Source: Apostichopus japonicus (lineage: Eukaryota > Echinodermata > Holothuroidea > Aspidochirotida > Stichopodidae). Taken from it: a DNA stretch of 64,000 nt. The stretch spans positions 16,775,001 through 16,839,000 of the forward strand of contig NC_092566.1 in NCBI RefSeq assembly GCF_037975245.1. Reading direction: 5' to 3'. Position 1 is the stretch's first letter; every line of letters begins with the position of its first letter. This document shows, piece by piece, positions 14,065 to 62,200 of the stretch. The notes beneath the pieces are model-generated. The model was not told the DNA's origin and searched no databases. It saw nothing but the letters and a program-made list of their open reading frames with translations. A program made the position numbers and the translations under genes.

Positions 14065-17000
14065 TCAATTTAAGAGCACTTTTCCTTCTAGAACTATTTT
14101 TGCTGTTCCTGATAAATCAACTCGTCCGTCATCTCTCATCTTGATCTCCAGATTCCCACCTCGTGCTGAGCATTGTCGAGCTGTAATTATGAACGTAAAA
14201 CGCAAAAAAAAATAGAAATAAATAAATAAATATAAAGGGGGTTGTAGGATAAAAACCGACAATACAACATATTCTTGAATAAATTTGACAACACCTACTA
14301 AATAGTGGTATTAATTATGAAATGAAAACTTTTCAATTTTGCAATTAATATATGATCAAAAATTCAAAAGAAGTCTGTCAATTCAGTGTAACATGAAAGT
14401 AATTTAAGCAATGTTTACTGGTAATGGCGAGAAGTACCGTGCCATAACTGTATGATTCTAGTTTGCAGGACCACACAGTCAGAGTGACTATAAATAAATG
14501 CATAAGAAACTTAAACTAATCAGAATCAAAAAAGTCTTAAACGTTCTGTATGCTAGTAAGATATCATGCCTCATCTGTTTCCATGTACAACTCACAGCTT
14601 CCCAAGTTTCAAACTGCCGACTATTAAATGACATTTGATAAACATGATGTCACTTAAAAATAATAAATAAAAGGCAAAAGACAGTCTTTCACATTTTCAG
14701 TTATACAATTTTTCATAATTATTTTTTTTTGTTGTGTGCAAATTACCACAATTGTCGCTAAAATGTTAGCATTTAATAATAGTGGGCTGAAGCAGCAATT
14801 CCTGTGTATTGAGGAATTGCATGCCAGAGATACTTTGGAAACATTTTCTATCAATGTTCATGATAGTTTGTAACACTATCGTTAGGATATTCCAGACACT
14901 TTCACAAACATTACCACAATATGTATGACTACATGCATGATTACCGAGGTGATTAGTACAAGAGAATTTTTTGTACAGCTTAAGGAAAGCATCCAAATGT
15001 CACAATAATTGATATTTATTTGATATTAATATTCAATGTGCATGCCACAATTTGGTCCATAAATGGCTTTGTCAAAATAGATTTCGGTTTATTCACTGCC
15101 GAAGATGTTACTTCAAAGAATACATCGTTGATGGAATATCGGTTTATTTTTTCTATAAATAAAATCTGCTAGAGTGTTAAACAGTTACCATCCTTTACTC
15201 ACCATACATTTCCTTCTTTCCTAAAACGTTAGACCAGTAAGGTGACAATACTGTGTGTGCTGCACCTATATATCACACAGAAAAAAGAAAATGTTATAAT
15301 TTGGGGGTACGGCAGAAATCTAGCAACATGTCATTGTGCAGATGCATAAAAATGAATGCAACACTTTATCAGCAAACTTAGTGGAGCTACTCTATGTAAT
15401 TGCAGTAAAAAGCTCAGAAGAAATGAAACAAGAAAAAATTAATTTCAAGAAGAGAAAAAATTGTATTGTCATGGTTATTTGACAATATATAAATGTCGTT
15501 TTGAAGACATATTTTTTTTTAAGTTATTTTACGTAATATTACCTTTTCATACTATCTTGTTTGCTATAAACTCTTATTGTGCTTTTAAAACCTCCTATTG
15601 TTTTTTGTTTTTTTAAATAACCACGTATTGTATTTTAATAACCTCTTATTGTTTATAACTTTTTTGTGTTGGTATTTAAGGATTATTTTATTAGGTTATC
15701 ATTTGATTTCACTGTATTTATCTCCTTTTTATAGGTTTTTGTGAAGCGCTTTGATACTTTTTAGGCTTTTATTTGCCTAGGTGTGTAAATTAAAGAACCC
15801 CTATCATACAACTACCACAACAACAATCTCTTTTACTACCCGTTGCAATATTAGACCACGAAGACAGTTCCGGAATGTGAACTACTTTAATAAAAAAGCG
15901 AAGAATTGGAATCCCTTGTGATTTGTCAGCTGAGCAGATCACATGTTTAAGAAAGCACAAAGGCCCACAAAAGAACATTTACGACAATGTCACCGAAACT
16001 CTACAGGTATAAGGCAAATGATTTAAGTAGTCAACAAAGTCACGAACTAAAGTCCTGTATGACTTAACACTATTTGCAATTACACTCAGCTGGTTTAAGA
16101 TATGGCCCTAATTGTTTGCAAAATAGTATGGTCTTCCACTTGAATGTCATAAACTTAAAGGCATGATTATTCAAACTTCAACATGTGTATACTTAAAGGG
16201 TGTGAAGACTCACGCACAAAGAAATGTCACATGCCGGTAATCTGACCTAGTTTTGAATAATGAGGTGTAACAGAAGTGTTAGACACCACCATCGATCCCA
16301 GAAAGTACACACACAGCTTGCTACCGTCGGTAATTGGAACACTAGTGTACAGTCAGTACATACAGCTGCGATCAATACCCACAGCACAGTGCACAAACGA
16401 TACAGCGATGGACATCTCAGGTCCAGCTAAAGATAACAAGGTATCACGTTTCATTACTGTCTGCATTTTGTAGTGACACAAAAAAAAATTTACTTGCAAG
16501 CAACCGAAAGTTAACTTTTTCAGATGGCGGCACGCGGTTTGGGCGAGTCTTCAATGCCTTTAATGAGACTTGTATAATACCTGTGACTGGATCTTCATCG
16601 ATACCATTCCATGGAGCAAAGTATCTAGAGATGAAATCGTAAACTCGGCCATCTTCATCGACTGCTCCATTCTCTTGGCTTCCTCTCAGAGTGATGATCA
16701 CACCCATGACCTCACCTGTCTTGTAAGCAGCCATCATCGCTGCTGGATTAGGTGACATCTTCTCCAATTCCTCTCTGTCGAATTAGATTTGAAAAAACAA
16801 AAAACAAATGAAGTCTTGTTAATGAATGCTGCTCAGTTAAAATTCCAGCATATGTCTTAAAGGGAGTGAGACTCGCGCACAAAGAAACGTCTGATGCCGG
16901 TAATCTCACCTAGTTTCAATGAGGTGTAACAGAAGTGTTAGACACCACCATCGATACCAGAAAATACACACACAGCTTGCTACTGTCAGTAATTAGACAC

Positions 17001-18344
17001 TAGTGTACAGTCAATACATGCAGCAACAGTCAAAACCCACAACACAGTGTACATAGCAGAGATGGACATCTCAGTTCTACATAAAAGAAAACAAGGTATC
17101 ATGTTTCATTACTGTCTGCATTTTGTAGCGACAAGAAGAAAACTTCACTTGCAAGTAACGGAAAGTTAACTTTTTTTCAGAGGGCGGCACGCAGTTTGGG
17201 GCGAGTCTTCAATGCCTTTAAATATTACAATAGTGATTTTTGAAATTGACCTAAACTGTCATAAATCATAGCTTTCGAAATGAAAAGGGGAACAAAATGT
17301 GACTAGTATTCGGGCCCTGATACATATCTCTGAGACTTACAGATTGCAGAGGATGGACCCCAGAATCGACTCTTTCAAACCTGAAAATTGTTAAGTATCT
17401 CTGTTGTGACTTCCAGGCTGTTGTCACACCTTTTACGAAGTTTCAAAATTTGCACTCAGCAAATGAGTTAGGCATAATCATTCCTGAATCAGTGAAATTA
17501 ATTTCAGTCATTGACAACATGATTTAGTAAATAATTCCTTTGAGATCTGTTCTGAATTACCCAAAAGCTTCACTTCATACATGAAATTCTATATCCTATA
17601 TATTTATACCTTTAGAAATGAAAATTGTTCACAAACAGATGCAAAATATTTTCCACAAGTTTCTTCAGTAATCAGATCAAGTCACCAAAAGATGATCACT
17701 TTAACAGGATCTGATTGTAAAGTGCAAACCATGAGAAAATATGGAAATGGAAAATGTGACAAGTCCTCCATTTATGGTTTTCCAGTGGAAGAGCAATGAG
17801 AAAATCATTGTCTCTTATTAATCTTTAAAATCTAAAATCGTAACCATCAAACAATGCAATGATTTAGCCATATCAAATAAGGCCATGTATGAGTTCTTCT
17901 TAAAAATACATGTGCATGAGAAAGCTATGTTTATAATATGATCCAACCCTCCAAAATAAAGGGTACCTTGTACACGAATCTGGTACTCGGAGAAGAAGCT
18001 CCTTGTTTGCACCGGGTGTGTACTGTACATCAAAGGGTGAGGCAGAGTCCAGAGTAATCTGATCAGTAACAGAGAGAAAAAAGTACAGGGTTACATAAAT
18101 ATTCTTCAAAGAAGTATGAGGAGGTACCTGTGGACGGACGGGTGCAAGAGGACGACCAGTTTTCTTGTCGAAAGTGAATATAACGTTTCTGCCAGCTTGG
18201 AATGATAATCTCCTAGTGTTATCTGAAAAAAACACAATTTTTATTTTTTTAATTTATTTCCAGTATAAATATAAATATTTTTATAAACAGTACATCAAAG
18301 GTGAGTACGTAAAGAGAAAATATTATTTTAAAATGTAAGTGTAC

Positions 18345-18376
<32 letters not shown>

Positions 18377-21300
18377 TACAAAACGTACAAGTGCAGCTGT
18401 CTACAATAAATTATCCCAGATTACCATTTTGTAAATAAATAGCAGCACGAAAAATAAAGCTATTTCTATACACATTAATTCTGAATTTTGGTGTTATTGC
18501 TTTGTTTCAATACACAGCAATTCATTTTGAACACAGTATGAGAGATGCCAAATTAAGGTTTGCCATTAGCCTAAAAAAGGTTTGCAAATTCTGAACAATG
18601 AAAATCTCTCCACTTGGCAATGTTAGAAGAACCTCTAATATAGCCAACATACACAGGAACAGTAAATATAGATTTTGCACAAATTGGAGCTTACATGAAT
18701 GTAACTTGGAAACAAACACACACTGCACAATGTGTACGACAGGCAGATGGAATGTTTTCCACAAATGATCATATTTCCTTAACATGCAAATATTTACACA
18801 TAAAAAAAAAATTGCAACTCACCTCAATTAATTTATCCACACCTTTGGGAACCTGCAAAAATGATAAAATATACAAAAAAAATGATAACGAAAGGATAAA
18901 ATAAGAGACAATAATGGTTCATAAAGTAACACTTTCCTCAATTGTAAATCACTGGTCTGTGATTGATGATTCTTCAGTTAAAACAAAATTCTACATATTG
19001 TAACTCTAAATTTTGAAATGTTGTCAATTTATTTTAATATAAAGTAAATATGAAGAAGCTGGTCCTATGATGTGATGAGAAAGAAGTTTCAATTTTCAAG
19101 TGCTAGTTAAGATCCAATTCCAAAGATCTGAGATCCCCAAAATATTATGCTGGAAACAATATTGTTTTATGTTTTAGGTCAAGAAACAGCCTTCAAACTA
19201 AGGTCTAAACTGAAGCAATTTTGTTGCAATGTGGATCGTCTAAATAAAGCTGTGTGATAATAAATTGATAAATATTTTTTATTGACCACAATGCAAACAC
19301 GGTCAATGATACTGTTGAGAATGTCAAAACCTGAAACTAGACAGCATAACAACTTTAGGATTATTTTCCTTAATTTACTACTCTCAATGTTCATGACCCA
19401 CCTTATCGCTGGGAGGATTCTGAGGTAAGGATATCGTGATTCGGTCTGCCGACCTTTTCGCAACAAGGTCACCACTCTTTGTCTTGAAAGTGAGTGCATC
19501 TGATTGATTTCCTGTGAAATAAATATTAATATACAGTAGTACAAAAGGAGGCAAAAAGGTAATCACATTAAAGTATTTTATTACATACTGCACCTGAGCT
19601 AAATTCCCTGTCCGAGTGATGACAGGTTACCTTCAATAACATTATTACGATTATATAAACTTGATAAGAGTAAAGAATGATTTTGTTGTTGTTTATCATT
19701 TAATAATTACATAATGATATATCAGGCCTTCTTCTGTTGGTTTATATCGCCATTTCACAATAATTCAACATACTGTCTTCAAGTCTGAGGCTCAACAGGT
19801 GTCCTTTGTTACTTTCTTCCGTTATTTACAAAGAGGTAAATCTGGCTAGCTCTTAATATGCAATGCATAAGCTTCTGAGAACACAAATAATAACAAATAA
19901 ATATTAATAAATATGTAATTTATATAGCGCCCAATCACACAAAGTATCAAAGTGCTTCACAAAACAAAATAATAACCTTATAAAAATAATCCTAAAATAC
20001 CAACACAAAAAGAGTAGAAAACAATAAGAGGTTATTAAAATACAATAGGAGGTTATATAAAAACAAAACAATAGGAGGTTATAAAAGTACAATAAGAAGT
20101 TATAACAAACAAGATCATATTATTAAAGCAGTTTTCGTTCCACATAGAAGTCTAACATTAAGCAAAGTGTGTCGTATTAATATAGGTTATCACATATCAT
20201 AATTGTCTTTTATAAATTGGTTACAATATAGTAAACAACAGTTATATTTTCTGACAACTTACCTGAGCAGAAAAATAAAACAGCAGCTGAGGCGACTGTA
20301 GCATGCCCACAAAGTTTGACTTCATTCTTAGGGGTGAACCAACGCAACTCAAAATTGGAGGCTATTGAAGAAAATGATTGGCAAGTCTTATGGTGAAGAA
20401 AATAGTAGTACTGTACCCCATTACTGAAAATATTTATTGTTTAATAGTGAGTTTTGTAATAACGGAAGTTGACTTTACATGTCCTTGCATAGTAAAAGAA
20501 ATTTTTGAACACTCAATATCAGGCAGTACAGCTTACATACTGTACATGTACACATTTTAAACCAAAATTTTACATACCAAGATTTAGTACTTACATTTCT
20601 CAAAAGAATCACCAGGTTGCAATATTCTGACAAATGCAGTCTCAGACAAATTCATCTCCATTGCAAGTTTCTGCTTGGTGTCATCGCTGAGATCCTACAA
20701 GAAAGTACCAAAATAATATAAAACTGTTAGCAAACTGCTTATCCACTAGAGAGCCTGTGTAATAGAATGTATAAAAGTAAGTTGGCCTGACCCCTAGCAG
20801 GATCTTCTTCAAAGGCTAAATGACAAGTAACAGTAACAGAAGGGACAAAAACACGCACAGAATACAGACAGGTTAACGAGCATGGTGAACACAAAGAGAT
20901 AGATGTAAGGGGATTAGTAGACAAGGGATGGAGAGAAGAAAGAAAGAAACAAGCAGGGGAAGAGGAGAGGTAGGAGATAAACAATGGAGGGACAAAGGGA
21001 GGATTAAGGAAAGGGGGTAGGGAAAGACAGGGGCACAGTGCCTACATAATATGACCCATGATTACAAGTATAAAACTGCTGAAGCTTGCAAATGCTCTAG
21101 CCTGTGGCCTAAGTCATGCCTTATTGATATAAATATGTTATTTGCATTATATGTTTGTGCAATTCTGATATTGCATTTTAAAAGGTCTCTATCGACCTTG
21201 TTGATTATTGAGTTCAGGTCTGTGTATCTTGTAACTTGGGAAATCCAGAAGGAATCTCAACTTTTTTAACCAAGTTACAAGTTACAATACCAAGTTGAAA

Positions 21301-22211
21301 CCCAAGTTACATACATTGTTATCCCTGCAAAACAAACATTGCCCTATTAAATGTACAAAACTGTTTGGCATTCCCTATCAGATGATCTTTAATCTATAAG
21401 CTCACTTACACTTTTCTAAAAACACTAAGACCCTTCTAAACATCTATTGATATCTGTATTATATTTTCATGGACCTGTTTCAGGCAAAAGTTTGAACATA
21501 TGTTGGCTGTGGTTGGAATTAGAGGTTTTGTGTGGGTTGGTGGGTTTTAGCTGAGTGTTATGGGTGTGGAAAGGTGGGAAAGTCGTGGCAGGGGTCGGGA
21601 GGTTTGTGTGGGGTCAGGGCTTTCATTTGTTCTCTTCTTTTTTGCTTGTTTCTTGTTTAGAGATATTTATGAATATTTTCATTGTTACGTATAGTGAGCC
21701 ATATTTGTTTTTTTAGTGCACTTCCTTTTGCAACTTTATATTTTTGTTACTAAATAGCCTTCTGTATACATGTACTTTGTAATCACTTGAATGGTGTGAT
21801 GAAATAAATTAATGAAATGAAGTTACTGTAGGCCTACTACACAATATGAAGTATCAAATTCAAAACGAAATATGCATTGTACCTATCTTTAGCATTTTTT
21901 CTTAATGATACTTTTACCTACAATTACAAAAATATGATAGAAACGTTCACGATTTAAACTAAGACTACAATTACAAAAGCATACGAAGCCCACAGAGTTA
22001 ACTCTAGGCTAGATATATGTACGTGATATGAATCTGGCCTAGGCCTAGGTGTGAATTGTGGGACTGCCATTTGGGGCCGAAATTATTTTTAATCTAAAAA
22101 TAAATATTTTACCCCATTTTGTATAAGACACACTGCTGCTGGATTTCCTGTAAACGGCTTACTAGCAAATGCATCAACAGTGAATATTGGCAAGCTTTTC
22201 TCGCTTGCCAT
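14065..22211 (-). CDS. PBLD: Phenazine biosynthesis-like domain protein (PhzF family), 9 coding exons plus one alternative, about 300 aa
   Basis: PhzF/PBLD isomerase-fold protein; the exact substrate in animals is unsettled. Exons in transcript order: 22211-22113, 20694-20595, 20361-20263, 19511-19402, 18852-18823 (only 30 nt, VPKGVDKLIE), then either 18222-18128 or 18058-17967, then 16774-16581, 15265-15203, 14180-14065. The sum is 903 nt with the second alternative (300 aa) or 906 nt with the first (301 aa); human PBLD is about 288 aa. Motifs: FTVDAFASKPFTGNPAAVC at the N-terminus, NLSETAFV with the family acidic residue E51, LCGHATVASA, RYFAPW, EDPVTG near 237-242, SPYW, and C-terminal LEGK. 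The start methionine lies 13 residues before DAF, as expected. Introns carry two TTAA-flanked MITEs around exon 16581-16774 and SINE-like sequences in opposite orientation. Divergently arranged with the esterase at 24837. Confidence 0.93.
15490..15785. repeat. SINE-tail-like repeat, arm 1 of an intronic inverted pair
   Basis: Contains repeated CTCTTATTGT / CCTCCTATTGTTTT units and GTGAAGCGCTTTGATACTTT. It is the reverse complement of 19895-20115. Both lie in PBLD introns. Confidence 0.7.
16193..16563 (+). mobile_element. TTAA-flanked (piggyBac-like) MITE, copy 1
   Basis: TTAA then AGGGTGTGAAGACTC at the left; GGGCGAGTCTTCAATGCCT then TTAA at the right, an inverted repeat. It ends only 17 bp from the splice donor of PBLD exon 16581-16774. 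TTAA target duplication is the hallmark of piggyBac-type insertions; autonomous partner not seen. Confidence 0.82.
16857..17221 (+). mobile_element. TTAA-flanked (piggyBac-like) MITE, copy 2
   Basis: Same element and orientation as copy 1, about 80 bp upstream (in transcript sense) of the same PBLD exon, TTAA at both ends (16857-16860, 17218-17221). Confidence 0.82.
17967..18058 (-). other. PBLD: PBLD alternative exon 6b (candidate mutually exclusive exon)
   Basis: A 92-nt exon with acceptor TACTGATCAG and donor ACAAG/GTACCC, starting ITLDSASPF and ending NKELLLRVPDSCTR. Entry phase 0 and exit phase 2. It lies only 69 nt downstream of 6a. Both exons begin with ITL and both donors are GTACC, consistent with an old tandem exon duplication. 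Confidence 0.8.
18128..18222 (-). other. PBLD: PBLD alternative exon 6a (candidate mutually exclusive exon)
   Basis: A 95-nt exon with a TTTTTTTCAG acceptor and a CACAG/GTACCT donor. Read in phase 0 it begins ITLGDYHSK and ends RKLVVLLHPSVHR, which aligns to the same stretch of PBLD as exon 6b. It enters in phase 0 and leaves in phase 2, exactly like 6b, so either can replace the other. In another frame this stretch is also open (from DNTRRLSF), but that frame does not join the neighbouring exons. Confidence 0.75.
18345..18380. repeat. Poly(A) run followed by (TA)n microsatellite
   Basis: About 18 A then about 10 TA units in a PBLD intron. Confidence 0.9.
19895..20115. repeat. SINE-tail-like repeat, arm 2 of an intronic inverted pair
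   Basis: AATTTATATAGCGCCCAATC, then CAAAGTGCTTCAC and several ACAATAGGAGGTTAT units; reverse complement of 15490-15785. Confidence 0.7.
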
Positions 22212-23849: not shown

Positions 23850-24155
23850 TCAAAAGTCTGCAGACTCCTCCTTTAGGCCACAGAAAGTACATCGTGAATT
23901 GTCAATTAAACCCATCAAACTCAGAAGATGATTTGTCCCAAGTATACGATGAAGACAACGAAATTGAACGTATTGTAATTTAATCTCCCTTAACGACTTG
24001 AAAGGAATTTGATAGATAACACGCCAATGTAGAGAGCTATAATCGAAATTTACATTCCACTTAACAATACACTTTGGAATAGTTACGTGTCCCTGAATTA
24101 GTTGCTTATAATGGAAACAACATGCTACTAAGATTGAGAAAAGCCCAACCATACA
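23825..24155 (-). pseudogene. Non-LTR retrotransposon (L1/Tx1-like) reverse transcriptase C-terminal remnant
   Basis: The minus strand encodes HWRVIYQIPFKSLREIKLQ, then YVQFRCLHRILGTN and CTFCGLKEES, the conserved tail after the RT domain of L1/Tx1-type elements. A frameshift near 23852 is needed to reach the following EHFF-like motif. Fragment only. Confidence 0.65.
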
Positions 24156-24399
24156 ACAATGCAGTAGCTTAGTAACAAACTAACAGTAGGCCTTACGGAC
24201 ATTTGGCTATTTGAGTCACAACTTACAGTACAGATCAATGTAGTGTCGTTAAACATTTGATGAACATTATTTATACTGTATGCCATTTAGGTTTAATAAC
24301 TTGTAATATAGGTGTACAGGGATAAGACTGGATAACATTAATATCAATCCCACACATCTACCAAGACAATTAAGTACTATGCTGCTGCTGCTGCTGTTT

Positions 24400-24836: not shown

Positions 24837-27800
24837 ATGACCGGTTTGAAGAGTACAGGTGTAGCAGTTGGTAAAGTTGTTTTAGTGGCAATTGGTGTGC
24901 TGTATGGTGTAGCAATTTTAATCAACTCCTTACATGGTTGGCCACAAAGTGACCCAGATCAGAGTAGATTTTGCAAGCAGTTAAGACCGTCAAGAGTTCT
25001 GAGTCTAAACTACACCCTGTGGGATCAGTGTTCCATGTTGAAATGGGTCCCCCTCTTTATCCGGGCAAAATGGCTTCATGATAATGCTGACCCTTCTTTA
25101 AAGGTGAGAATAAGATGAGTTTTACAGGCAAAATGTAATATTTATTAAAGAAGACAAAAGGAAGAGTGTTGTAATTTAATTTTAATGAATGCTGACCCTT
25201 AAAGGCATTGAAGACTTGCCCCAAACCCTGTGCGGCCATCTGTAAAAGTTAACTTTCTGTTGCTTGCAAGTAACGTTTTGTTCGTGTCGCTACAAAATGC
25301 AGACAGTAATGAAACGTGATACCTTAATTGTTATCTTTAGCTGGACCTGACATGTCCATCGTTGTATCGTTTGTAAACTGTGCTGTGGGTATGGACCGCA
25401 GCTGTATGTACTGACTGTACACTAGTGTCTAATTACCAACGGTAGCAAGCCGTGTGTGTATTTTCTGGGATCGAAGGTGGTGTTAAACACTTCTGTTACA
25501 CCTCTTCGGAACTAGGTCAAATTACCGGCATTAGACGTTTTTTTTGCGCGAGTCTTCACACCCTTTAACAGATTCAGATTTTAAATAGGACTTAACCAAA
25601 CAACATGAAATATATTTACTGTATATATATATATATTGCTACATTTTATACTGTACAAAGTTTAAACTTGAGAAATGTCACATAGTCACAAAACTCAAAT
25701 TAAAAGGTTGTAAAAGGCGCAGCTGAGTTGAATGGAACAAATTACATCTTTCAACAAATTTTAATGCAATGAAGAGTTGCTATGTTGGCTTTCATAAGAT
25801 GTGGAATTAGAATTAATTATTTATTTCTCTCATTCACATCTATTTACCCATGTATTACCCATGTAATATAATATTATTCTTCTGTTATTTTCCTGTAGAA
25901 TATTCCATTTGGAGAGAATGGCTTGACAATGGATATCTGGCTTCCTAAGAGCAAAGATCACCCACAGCAGATGCCTGTAGTGTTTTTCATCCATGGCGGT
26001 GGTTGGGGATCGGGTTCTAAGGAGATATATGCAAAGTTAGGTCAAGAACTAGCTAACAACCTAACATCCACTGTAGTAATTCCAGATTATCGTATATATC
26101 CCAAGGTAATTGGATTTTTTTTTTTTAAATTTTAACTGCAGTATCAGTAACTGTAAATGTCTGTTTTGGTTTGATATTGTCTGTGCATTCTGAGTACATG
26201 TAATTATTGCAGTACAGTTTTAATTTGTATTAAATTCACTTGATTTTTGTTAATGTTTTTTTTTTCAACTGTAGTATCAGTTACTGTAAATGTCTGTTAT
26301 GGTTTGATATTGTCTGTGCATTCTGAGCATATGTAATTATTGCACTACCGTTTTAATTTGAATTTAAATTCACTTCATGATTTTTGTTGTTGCTTTTTTT
26401 CAACTGTAGTATCAGTAACTGTAAATGTCTGTTTTGGTTTGATATTGTCTGTGCATTAATCTGAGTATATGTAATTATTGCACTACAATTTTAATTAGTA
26501 TTTAAATTCACTTGATTTTTGTTAATGCTTTTTTTCAACTGTAGTATCAGTAGTATATACTGTAAATGTCTGTTTTGGTTTGATGTTGTCTGTGATTTCT
26601 GAACTACTGCACTACAGTTTAAATATGTACCTATAAATACACTTGCTTTTTTTTCTTTTTTTTTCAGGGAACTATGCAAGATATGGTAACCGATATTTCT
26701 GATGCACTTCTTGAGTTTCGGAAGTTAAGCAATACCTCACACTTTTCTGGCGATACTAGTAAAGTAATTCTCATGGGACATTCTGCTGGGGCCCATCTTA
26801 GTGCCTTAGCAGCGATCCATCTTGCTGCTAAAGACTGTAATTCACCACAACAAGAACCTGTATTCTTGAAGAATAGTGACGGTAACGATCAAGATACAGA
26901 ACAAGACCAGATCAGATATCACAAATCAGGAGAGGAAAATATTGTCACTGATCCGAAAGGAAACGTTGACTCTGAAGAATGTGAGGGAGAAAAGTGCACG
27001 AGTAACACGGGGCATCATGCTCGAGAAACGGAAGAACACCTAGTCCCTAACTCCGAGCGAGAGGAAAATCCTGCCGAGACGATGGTTGACTTAGTTCTGT
27101 ATGTCAAGGGTGTCATTGGAATAAGTGGTGTGTACCACCTCATGGATTATTACCATCACGAGTCAACGAGAGGAATGGAAGACATCTCACTGATGTGGAG
27201 AGCGGCGGAGGGATTGCAGAACTTTGAGAAATATTCACCAGTTTCTATCGTTCCGAGTCTAAATGACAGTCAGATCAAAAGGTTTGTTCAATTTGATTTT
27301 GCATTTTAATAAATCTTATTTGGTAACATTTGCTTTTTAAGTTCAATATGTTAGGTACGTAGACATCCTGTGAAGGTGTTTTTTCTCAACCCATTAAAGG
27401 GTGTGAAGACTCGCGCAAAAAGAAACATCTAATGCCGGTAATCTGACTTAGTTTTGAATGAGGTGTAACAGAAGTGTTAGACACCACCATCGATCCCAGG
27501 AAATACACACACATCTTGCTACCGTCGGTAATTAAACACTAGTGTACAGTCAGTACATATAGCTGCGGTCAATACCCACAGCACAGTGTGCAAATGATAC
27601 AGCGATGGACATCTCAGGTCCAGCTAAAGATAACAAGGTATCATGTTTCATTTTGTAGCGACACGAACAAAACGTCACTAGTAAGCAACGGAAAGTTAAC
27701 TTTTTCAGATGGCCGCACGCGGTTTGGGCGAGTCTTCAATGCCTTTTAAGTTCATATCATAACATGCCAATAATATTTGAAGTATTTAAATGCACAGAAA

Positions 27801-28745
27801 AATGGTCACAAAAGTACTTATATCCAACTAATTTCAGCTTCAAATTAATTCGAAATTAATGGGCAGACAATTTTTTTGAGAAAATATTGCTCATGCTTGC
27901 ATTTGGAATTTTTTGGCCAATTTCTGGATATAGACACAACCTCTGCAATATCTTTAAGATTAATCATTGAAAATACAAGCCCGTAAAATGAAGCTATTTG
28001 AGAATCCAGACAATTATCATATTTTCTTTTTTGAGGTAGGGTCTAAAATCTTTTTCGTAAGGTCTAATTTTGATAGTACAGAAGACAAGAGTTGATTATC
28101 ATACAATGTTCAATGTTACAAGACCAGTAACTGATCTGAGTCAAGTGAGAAGTATTTATCAATTTGTCTGTCACTTGGCAAACTGTCATTGAACATATCT
28201 ATAAATCTTGTAATTCTGAAAAAGAGTTTGTGACGTACTTTAATAGTCAGCAAATTGATGGCAATAAAATTGAAGGAATTTGAATTACAATCGATATCTT
28301 TATCAAACATCACATATATCCAATGATAACATTGAAACTTGATATAATTCTACTGCTGTTTTGTGAGGTCATCACAGTGCAACAGATTGTATCCACTTAA
28401 AAATTAGCATTTTCTGCATGGTCCTTTGCAATTTCAACACTCCAAGCTGTTCAGGAATCAAGATTTCTGAATTGTCTGACATCTTTGCTTGGTTTTTACC
28501 CTAGAATCCCACCACACATGCTAATCCATGGTATGAAGGACACTATGGCACCCTTTTCATCTGCTTCCAAATTTGCGGAAACATTGTCAGGAGTAGGAGT
28601 ACCTGTCACCTTCAAACTGCTTCCCGAGGGTGGTCATTTAGACCTGGCCGTGGGTATGATGGAACCAGATCGAAAATGGTACAGTGAAATGATGAGTATG
28701 GTGATGGAAGGAGCAATGTCTTTCTTAAAGGATGGCAATACTTGA
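24837..28745 (+). CDS. Membrane-anchored alpha/beta-hydrolase esterase (isoprenylcysteine methylesterase-like), 4 exons, 442 aa
   Basis: Exons 24837-25103, 25899-26105, 26668-27281 and 28505-28745 total 1329 nt. An N-terminal hydrophobic segment at about residues 11-32 suggests a signal anchor. Catalytic features of the HSL/carboxylesterase-type fold: oxyanion motif HGGGW (121-125), nucleophile elbow GHSAG (S197), acid in GMKD (D375) and histidine in EGGH (H407). Between the nucleophile helix and the next core strand (VKGVIGISGVYHLMDYY) there is an acidic, polar, low-complexity insert of about 80 residues with many E, D, N and S, probably a disordered loop. The family includes plant-type isoprenylcysteine methylesterases; the substrate here cannot be read from sequence. 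The start was chosen as the first ATG after a CATTTCAG acceptor (24801-24808), implying a 5' UTR exon upstream; an in-frame ATG at 24753 would lie in the presumed intron. A TTAA-flanked MITE sits in introns 1 and 3. Confidence 0.87.
25199..25568 (-). mobile_element. TTAA-flanked (piggyBac-like) MITE, copy 3, reverse orientation
   Basis: Reverse-complement copy in intron 1 of the esterase, with TTAA at 25199-25202 and 25565-25568. Confidence 0.82.
26130..26640 (+). repeat. Tandem repeat in esterase intron 3-proximal intron (about 125-130 bp, four units)
   Basis: CAACTGTAGTATCAGTAACT, then TGTCTGTTTTGGTTTGATAT and TAATTATTGCACTAC recur four times between exons 26105 and 26668, each followed by a T-rich stretch. 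Confidence 0.85.
27394..27749 (+). mobile_element. TTAA-flanked (piggyBac-like) MITE, copy 4
   Basis: In intron 3 of the esterase. TTAA at 27394-27397 and 27746-27749; one extra T precedes the right TTAA. Confidence 0.8.
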
Positions 28746-59216: not shown

Positions 59217-62200
59217 CTAGAAAGCGGTATTCGGTCGTTTTTCAAGCCAGGCCTTAATTTGTGGGATATCTTTCATTCTTTTCACATGAGATGCTAGTTT
59301 CGGGAAGTCCTTTGGATCATAGTCCGAAGGGAAATGTGTTCGAAGTGTCACATCGATAAACACAAAAACATGGAAATCTGCCAGTGAAATCTGTTAACAG
59401 AAGAAGAGAAAATAGAATTTCGATTTTATTGGAAAGCGCTTTACAAATAGCACATATTATTATTATTATTTTTATTATTATTATTATTATTTTAATTATT
59501 ATTATTTCTATTATTATTATTATTATTTTTATTATAAGTTGATTGTAAGCATTGAAAGCAAACATGACCATTATAAGAATTATTCAATCGTCCTGAAGGA
59601 AAGTACGTTTCTTTACAGAAACTAAATAATCACACTTGGAGAAACGCTGATTAGGACGGTCGATTAAATGGGCGAGGTATAAAACTTGAAGTATATGCAG
59701 TCACTTTGGTTCTACACGGCACACGCAGGTAATTACAGGCAAATGCATTGATATTGGGACCAAAATAACCATGTGATATAATTTTTACGTAACGAGCTCG
59801 AATGAGAAATTTGTGAGCAGCATTGTATGGGTGCTTGTAAGTATATACCTTATCTCCAACAAAGAACGCGTTTCCGTCCTTGTTTTCCTTCAACATGGTT
59901 TCGAGGATACCGTACACTTTCGGTATCTTCTTTTCGATGTACCTCTTCTTCACAGTAGCCTGCCAAGAAAAACGAGACGACCTTAAAGTAAGTGAAGACT
60001 CGCGCACAAAGAAACCTCTGATGCCGGTAATCCGACATGATTCCGGTAATCCGACCTAGTTTCGAATGAGGTGTAACAGAATTGTTAGACACCACCATCG
60101 ATCGCAGAAAATACACACACAGCTTGCTACCGTCGGTAATTAGACACTAGTGTACAGTCAATACATACAGCTACGGTCAATACCCCACAACATAGTGTAC
60201 ATAGCAGCGATAGACAACTCAGGTCTAGATAAAAGATAACAAGGTTTCACGTTTCATTACTGGCTGCATTTTGTAGCGACAAGAAGAAAACTTCACTTGC
60301 AAGCAACGGAAAGTTAAAAAAAAAAATTCAGAGGGTGGCACGCGGTTTGGGGCGAGTCTTTAATGCCTTTAATTTAAAGATCTGCTATATTGGCTCCAAT
60401 TATAGCACGCTATAGCTGGGAAAGTTTTCATTTTTTAATTATGCAATCGACCTGCCACGATCGTAAATCGACCTCAGAAATTTACAATTTGCCTGCATAG
60501 CTTCTTCACACCATTAGGCTATTTTGTGTAAACATTGTGTGGATTATGTTCATGTCTACAGTGTAGTTAATCATGTAGCATTCACACAAAGTCCCTTGTA
60601 GAAGAAAAATATGTGGCAGTCGTTGCAGACTCATTGGTAAAAAGAGGTCATTTTACGACCAAGGCAGCCGGGTCGATTACGTAATCTTAATAAACTTTGC
60701 CATGATAGTGTGCTATATAGTTGGGGTCTATACAGCAGACCTGGCGTATATAGGAAGCTATGGAAACGACAGGATACACCGCAAAGACATGGTAATTATT
60801 TATGTACTTCAATCGTTTTGTAATATGTTATGTTCAAGCCGTCACCCCTCCCACCACACCGGAAATATACGCAGTTGCACTCCTGACCATTAGATATGTA
60901 TGGTTTGCTATCAATCCAAAGATCTAAAAGTAATCTATCTTCACCTCAGCCATGTAAAACTGGAACAGGGGTTATGTACTGTGGTTAGAATAAACTGATA
61001 CATATATGATTCTAAAAGTATAAATAATGAAATAATTAAGGTGAACTTACCTTGGTCTCGTCGGTTTCGTCAGGCCGCCAGAGCCTATCAACATCATGTT
61101 CGTAGTCAACAATCGTTTCGCAAATAGAGTCGATACGAGCCGACTCCCAATTGCTACTGCCATAAAATCCTGCCCGAAAGAAACATGGTAAAAAATGAGA
61201 TGAAACTTCTAGAATAACCTGAATAATGGCGAAATTTTACTGAAAACCCCAATCTCTAAGGTTGATACGTGTTTTTTGTGATTTGAAGTCTCATTGAACA
61301 AAATGGTCCTGAATGTCCACAGTGCATAATTTCAACCGATGCAAAGCTCGGTTGCTGTTACATCATTTTGTGATTACAATCAGCCCGAACGAGAGAGAGA
61401 GAGAGAGGGGGGGGGGGTGGAGAGGGGGGGTCAGGGGAGATCCTGAGTGCATCATTTATACTATCGTCACGAATTTCAACCGATGCGAAGCTCCTGTTGT
61501 TGTTATATCATTTTGTGATTATATAATCAGCTTGAATGAGAGACACGGGGGGGGGGGGGGTATCAGGGGGTGTGAATCAGCATTTGGGTCTCCTTTACAG
61601 AAAATGAACTTAGAAATAAATAAAAAGGCCAAATAAATAGGCCAAATAAGTGAAACAGTTGAAGCAAATGTGGCGTGATGATGTCATACTTAGACTTGAT
61701 CAAGTCTCCAGCCTTGTGTGTTAAGGAACATTATATTTGTGATATCTCCTAAATGGAATCATATTTTTTCTTTCTGGGATAGTTGTTTGGGATAGTTCTA
61801 CGTGACAGTTATCTCTATCACATATAGACATCTCATGACGGTTGGATATTTGTCACCTTTAACGTCACCTGAACAAAATATAACGTTTGGTGGTGAGCAG
61901 AAGTTAAAGGCAGTCAGTATAGGCCCCAATTATAGCATGCTCTAATTGCTAGAAGTTTTCAAAAAATACATTCCTGGAGGTCTTTACTCTCCAAATTGTT
62001 CTCAGACATTGTTAAGGAACACACAATATGGCTGAATGTCCCAGTGAGGAATATTTCCTGGAAGGTTGTAATTAAAACAGTTTAAGAATTTTGACCCAAA
62101 GGAGACCATATTTAAATATCTAGCATATTTGGTGACAATACAGTATACCTTTTAAGGCTTCACCGCCTTACCAGCTTCCCTTGCGATGTATCGGCAGATG

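Follow-up and report, generated by a model that had tools for sequence, protein, structure and literature searches.

According to the available sections of its published description, WebScipio recognizes tandem mutually exclusive exons as neighbors that differ by at most 20 amino acids in length, have compatible splice sites, lie in the same frame, and contain no stop, with a default similarity threshold of at least 15% of the self-score in relative BLOSUM62 terms (PMC3228551). An RNA-seq survey, in its available text, instead relies on junction reads from each exon that bridge the other, with reads joining the two exons admitted only if the joined product is frame-shifting. The same survey treats a donor-to-branch-point distance of less than 50 nt as potential steric interference, which applies to 9% of human clusters and is not required (PMC5740500). 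For exons 4a and 4b of OGDH, the intron that separates them, whose branch point sits close to the upstream donor, is said to enforce the choice between them (PMC7969005), and for the duplicated exons Ab and 3 of U2AF1, one member of the pair is described as having the less favorable splice signals (PMC5224494).

The locus considered here lies in the window, the 64,000-nucleotide stretch of DNA that was analyzed (C6:16775001-16839000, from a genome searched over 671.6 Mb in 35 contigs). A PBLD gene of the PhzF family runs along the minus strand from 22211 to 14065 and has nine exons when either exon A or exon B is used.

22113-22211, minus strand: PBLD e1, with the start codon at 22211, placed by translation and splice borders
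20595-20694, minus strand: PBLD e2, carrying the NLSETAF motif
20263-20361, minus strand: PBLD e3, 99 nt, carrying the LCGHAT motif; the paralogue exon is equal in length
19402-19511, minus strand: PBLD e4, 110 nt; the paralogue exon is equal in length
18823-18852, minus strand: PBLD e5, 30 nt, phase 0 at exit
18128-18222, minus strand: exon A, candidate alternative exon, 95 nt, phase 0 to 2
18059-18127, minus strand: A-B intron, 69 nt
17967-18058, minus strand: exon B, canonical PBLD exon, 92 nt, phase 0 to 2
16581-16774, minus strand: PBLD e7, phase 2 at entry, carrying the EDPVTG motif; site of the stops produced by A+B and by skipping of both
15203-15265, minus strand: PBLD e8, a PBLD exon
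14065-14180, minus strand: PBLD e9, including the stop codon

The full-length product matches Pfam PF02567 at 200.9 bits with A and 194.5 bits with B (curated cut-off, 27). SETAF, CGHAT, and EDPVTG, which we take to be the PhzF active-site motifs, all fall within exons common to both predicted isoforms (e2, e3, and e7). On the plus strand, the neighboring gene at 24837-28742 contains alpha/beta-hydrolase exons, and two of the three pieces scanned match the Pfam families BD-FAE, Abhydrolase_3, and Peptidase_S9. A minus-strand fragment at 23850-24179, perhaps a retroelement remnant, has a weak likeness to a reverse transcriptase zinc-binding region (PF13966, 19 bits; cut-off, 27.5).

An earlier note on this DNA had proposed A and B as alternative exons, and its description of their anatomy was verified throughout: the coordinates, the lengths of 95, 92, and 69 nt, the AG/GT borders, the open frames, the ITL with which both begin, the terminal R, and the phases shared by both (0 at entry, 2 at exit). 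In both exons, the terminal R is completed across the junction to 16774, and the slot that either can occupy lies between e5, which exits in phase 0, and e7, which is entered in phase 2. The predicted protein is 301 amino acids long with A alone and 300 with B alone. As the note had also claimed, including both exons breaks the frame, with a stop after 221 codons inside e7; skipping both gives a stop after 154 codons, again inside e7, and retaining the 69-nt intron between A and B gives one after 184 codons. The stops of the joined and skipped forms lie more than 200 nt upstream of the last junction, and premature stops so placed normally trigger nonsense-mediated decay. All 15 further introns or pieces of introns tabulated for this gene and its paralogue measure at least 233 nt, compared with 69 nt between A and B; one of the 15, a piece of 1,465 nt, spans the small fifth exon of the paralogue.

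The pair resembles those predicted by WebScipio in length (95 versus 92 nt), in phase (0 to 2), in its GT-AG borders, and in its open frames, but differs from them in similarity. The relative similarity of A and B is 2.6% of the self-score of B, or 5.6% when the R of the split codon is included, as opposed to the 15% default, so with default settings A would escape prediction by WebScipio (PMC3228551, as available). The earlier note had held that A and B align to the same PBLD segment and show the classic mutually exclusive architecture; the shared slot, the frame incompatibility, and the short intron hold, but the mutual alignment is weak, and the expected homology falls below the published cut-off.

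The frame shift on joining, described as common but not required in the available text of the RNA-seq survey (PMC5740500), is present here, with A+B stopping after 221 codons. Within the 69-nt intron, two motif matches are candidate branch points, TAAC at 37 nt and TTTAT at 32 nt from the donor of A; if either serves as the branch point, its distance would fall under the 50-nt steric limit of that survey. The TAAC candidate lies 32 nt from the acceptor of B. Like OGDH exons 4a and 4b, the PBLD exons belong to a metabolic-enzyme gene and have a putative branch point close to the upstream donor; unlike OGDH, whose mechanism has been studied (PMC7969005, available text), the PBLD pair has a branch point and an exclusivity that are predicted and a very low similarity between its members. 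The resemblance to U2AF1 lies in one exon having the weaker signals, here B, although U2AF1 represents another gene family with studied exon usage (PMC5224494, available text), whereas that of the PBLD pair is predicted.

The earlier note had known of no such description for PBLD, and we likewise found none in the open-licence papers searched, within the text available for each source. There, pbld1 is named among differentially spliced genes in a reef fish (PMC8933327), PBLD is named among the hypoxia splicing targets of another study (PMC5481333), and two further sources mention PBLD in ways unrelated to such an exon pair (PMC10483729, PMC7479143). The available part of a further source mentions neither exon, isoform, nor splicing (PMC4808015). 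On this comparison, the PBLD pair may be a further example of an already familiar type of splicing.

Which of the two exons is canonical is indicated by a second PBLD gene, the one other found in the genome, which lies 7.9 Mb away on the same contig (C6:8893285-8902170). Its counterparts of exons 3, 4, B, 7, and 8 are equal in length to those of the present gene (99, 110, 92, 194, and 63 nt). Exon B matches the 92-nt exon of the paralogue with 45% identity over 31 residues (E = 3e-8, tblastn against the paralogue locus); for exon A, the same search gave no convincing match, and none of the 42 phase-fitting candidates in the paralogue introns beside B is A-like, the best having a negative score. 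The paralogue thus shares several exon lengths and a B-like exon with this gene but, unlike it, has no A-like exon among these candidates. Because of this, B is the canonical PBLD exon and A the extra one.

Open stretches with fitting phases are numerous in the window, where both strands contain 711 pseudo-exons (AG..GT stretches of 80 to 110 nt that are phase-fitting and stop-free), from which about 4 would be expected by simple arithmetic in an intron of 764 nt. As a bare pseudo-exon, A is not more than chance. As a PhzF-like stretch, A exceeds chance moderately. After removal of the 6 pseudo-exons that overlap the A/B region, none of the 705 remaining decoys reached the score of A against the paralogue exon (8, equaled or bettered by 32 of 5,000 shuffles of A), and 5 reached its score against B (6, reached by 46 of 5,000 shuffles). 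With length-matched decoys free of PBLD-exon overlaps, the corresponding counts were 0/379 for the paralogue exon and 3/379 for B, and of 114 candidates from the introns on either side of B, A scored best.

When segments were placed in a fixed context as truncated chimeras and scored with Pfam, A reached 38.5 bits, the paralogue exon 38.2, and B 32.0, compared with 29.9 bits with no segment. The chimera decoys comprised 24 intronic stretches and 24 shuffles, of which 40 (23 and 17, respectively) were scanned as an alignment and 8 separately. Among the 40, none reached the E value of A or even 1e-8, and 4 reached B; the remaining 8 scored 26.7 to 34.8 bits, with 2 above B and none at the level of A. 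None of the 48 decoys thus reached A; since 6 of them reached the real exon B, the test is a blunt one. A profile of prokaryotic PhzF proteins (21 homologues from 23 loci, L003 and L016 having no usable open frame) failed to separate either exon from the decoys: A ranked 70th of 711, with 208 of 2,000 shuffles equal or better, and B ranked 194th, with 554 of 2,000. Because even the canonical B is not separable, this profile has little power and was set aside.

A further comparison used a provisional mammalian PBLD segment, chosen after A had been seen, which we take as a lead only. Against it, A scored 26, B 29, and the paralogue exon 29, levels reached by 4, 5, and 0 of 20,000 shuffles, respectively. 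Among the 711 pseudo-exons, B ranked first and A second, with a top score of 11 among those related to neither. Alignment of the flanks of the provisional segment with this gene gives 54% and 53%, from which the sequence appears to come from a real PBLD. The strongest single test thus uses a provisional sequence.

Exon A lacks the features common to B and the paralogue exon (DVQ..PGAN), yet it is about as close as they are to the provisional vertebrate segment, suggesting that the A/B duplication probably took place before the two PBLD genes diverged and that the second gene then lost A. This dating depends on the provisional segment and is the least secure step of our reading. If the frame, the two phases, the splice sites, and the family resemblance have held for so long, selection would be needed to keep them.

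The codon and splice-site evidence is mixed. A codon-bias frame test trained on 958 codons favored the true frame in 18 of 20 known exons, and it gave the proposed frame of A a score of -0.7 versus +1.7 for another frame of A. Trained on the two PBLD genes alone, the test ranked 501 of 531 open intron windows below the proposed frame, which again scored less than the other frame of A. Splice sites were scored with small matrices derived from known sites (14 acceptors and 14 donors), each of which was left out in turn. The acceptor of A (6.2) is above 3 of the 14 known acceptors, and its donor (3.3) is just below the lowest known donor (3.6), or above 1 of 14 with another pseudocount. Neither site of exon B reaches any of its 14 known counterparts (acceptor, -6.4; donor, -0.6), so that A outscores B at both ends. 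Sites at least as strong as both of those of A border 12 to 20 other pseudo-exons in the introns of this gene; among the 705 phase-fitting open decoys there are 4, one of which is e4 in the wrong frame.

At the DNA level, the first 12 bases of A share 7 with B (11/705 decoys equal or better), the last 8 exon bases match at 2 (479/705 as good), and the first intron bases after A match those after B weakly better (91/705 as good). Both donors read GTACC[CT], as do 22 of 3,691 GT sites in a post hoc count. The donor of B, GTACCCTTT at 17967, is one mismatch from the U12-type consensus, and 12 of 3,690 same-strand GT sites come that close; a U12-type switch was rejected, the paralogue donor having 5 mismatches and no U12 branch site before e7 being seen by eye. 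Folding of the exon pair as RNA gave no structure signal (z = 1.17).

Several other elements lie in the PBLD introns. Element X (17341-17380, minus strand, 40 nt, AG/GT borders) was rejected as a further exon because it breaks the frame with A alone or B alone; in combination with both, it restores an open frame to the normal stop (345 amino acids, with B in the wrong frame), which is probably a coincidence. A dispersed repeat of about 358 bp occurs at 16206-16563, 16869-17221, 25199-25555 (inverted), 27407-27746, and 60040-60372; the four copies other than the query are 85 to 88% identical to it, and two copies lie within PBLD introns. The A+T-rich stretches at 15549-15760 and 19941-20120, also in PBLD introns, are inverted copies of each other and 77 to 87% complementary. 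Neither DNA nor peptide searches revealed a second copy of A in the genome among the best candidates scored, and an origin of A from a repeat was rejected on this ground.

Exon A could be a chance pseudo-exon, an open, phase-fitting stretch between good-looking AG and GT borders in the intron ahead of B, with B as the sole real exon and A never included in the message. The abundance of phase-fitting open pseudo-exons, about 4 being expected in an intron of this size, speaks for this reading, as do the 12 to 20 pairs of equally strong splice sites in this gene, the absence of a codon signature for the proposed frame, the low similarity to B, and the lack of a counterpart among the candidates in the paralogue. 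Its difficulty is the PhzF likeness, which was reached by 0/48 Pfam chimera decoys and, against the paralogue exon, by 0/705 pseudo-exons; the scores against the provisional segment, as a lead, point the same way. We regard a chance origin as unlikely. A somewhat smaller probability attaches to A being a true duplicate of the PBLD exon that has no protein-making role, either a fading relic or a poison exon that lowers PBLD output through nonsense-mediated decay when joined to B. The early stop of A+B in e7 is what such an exon would produce, the codon signature does not favor the frame of A, no A was found in the paralogue, and the splice sites of A beat those of B, so that its inclusion by default is possible. 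But a poison exon needs neither an open frame nor matching entry and exit phases, and the 69-nt intron speaks against the joining of A to B.

The better-scoring second frame of A raises another possibility, that A is read as NTRRLSFQ..., entered in phase 1 and left in phase 0, and joins B as additional upstream sequence, reached for instance from a shortened e5 or a different promoter. Besides its slightly better codon score (+1.7 versus -0.7), this frame runs stop-free into B, within a 117-codon open stretch (17900-18253, minus strand) that passes through the 69-nt intron into the coding frame of B. Stop-free stretches of at least 100 amino acids are, however, common (38 in the window), and the peptide matches nothing in the PDB at E = 1 and nothing in Pfam with an E value below 0.16. 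This alternative was rejected because neither upstream model exon (e4 or e5) exits in phase 1 with a standard donor and because the Pfam score of one isoform of this type is 188.5 bits, versus 194.5 without the added piece; we consider it very improbable.

Our preference, held with modest confidence, is that A and B are an old mutually exclusive exon pair of PBLD, and A is likely, on this view, to be used as an expressed alternative. A fuller scenario is offered tentatively, as one that may well fail in some part: a duplication predating the split of the two genes would have been kept as a mutually exclusive pair, its products being two PBLD enzymes distinct from each other in about 31 residues away from the active-site motifs, and the weak canonical exon would have to be actively chosen. 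Under the mutually exclusive reading, A and B would be two versions of one PBLD exon, one per message, that compete for splicing. The 69-nt intron, with its putative branch point about 37 nt from the donor of A, may be too cramped for efficient joining of A to B, and any messages that contain both exons or neither would be removed by nonsense-mediated decay. Because its splice sites score above those of B, A may be the default choice, whereas B, whose sites score lower than all 14 known acceptors and all 14 known donors, may depend on assistance in a particular tissue or state. The isoforms would differ in a stretch outside the PhzF active-site motifs, which both keep.

PBLD is widespread and has an enzyme fold; its substrate in animals is, to our knowledge, unsettled. 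If the pair is real, two naturally selected versions of one stretch would mark a part of PBLD that matters, and the A/B pair would give a clean handle for testing the protein. It would also mean that old exon pairs can drop below the similarity cut-off of a published predictor, such that surveys may miss pairs of this kind.
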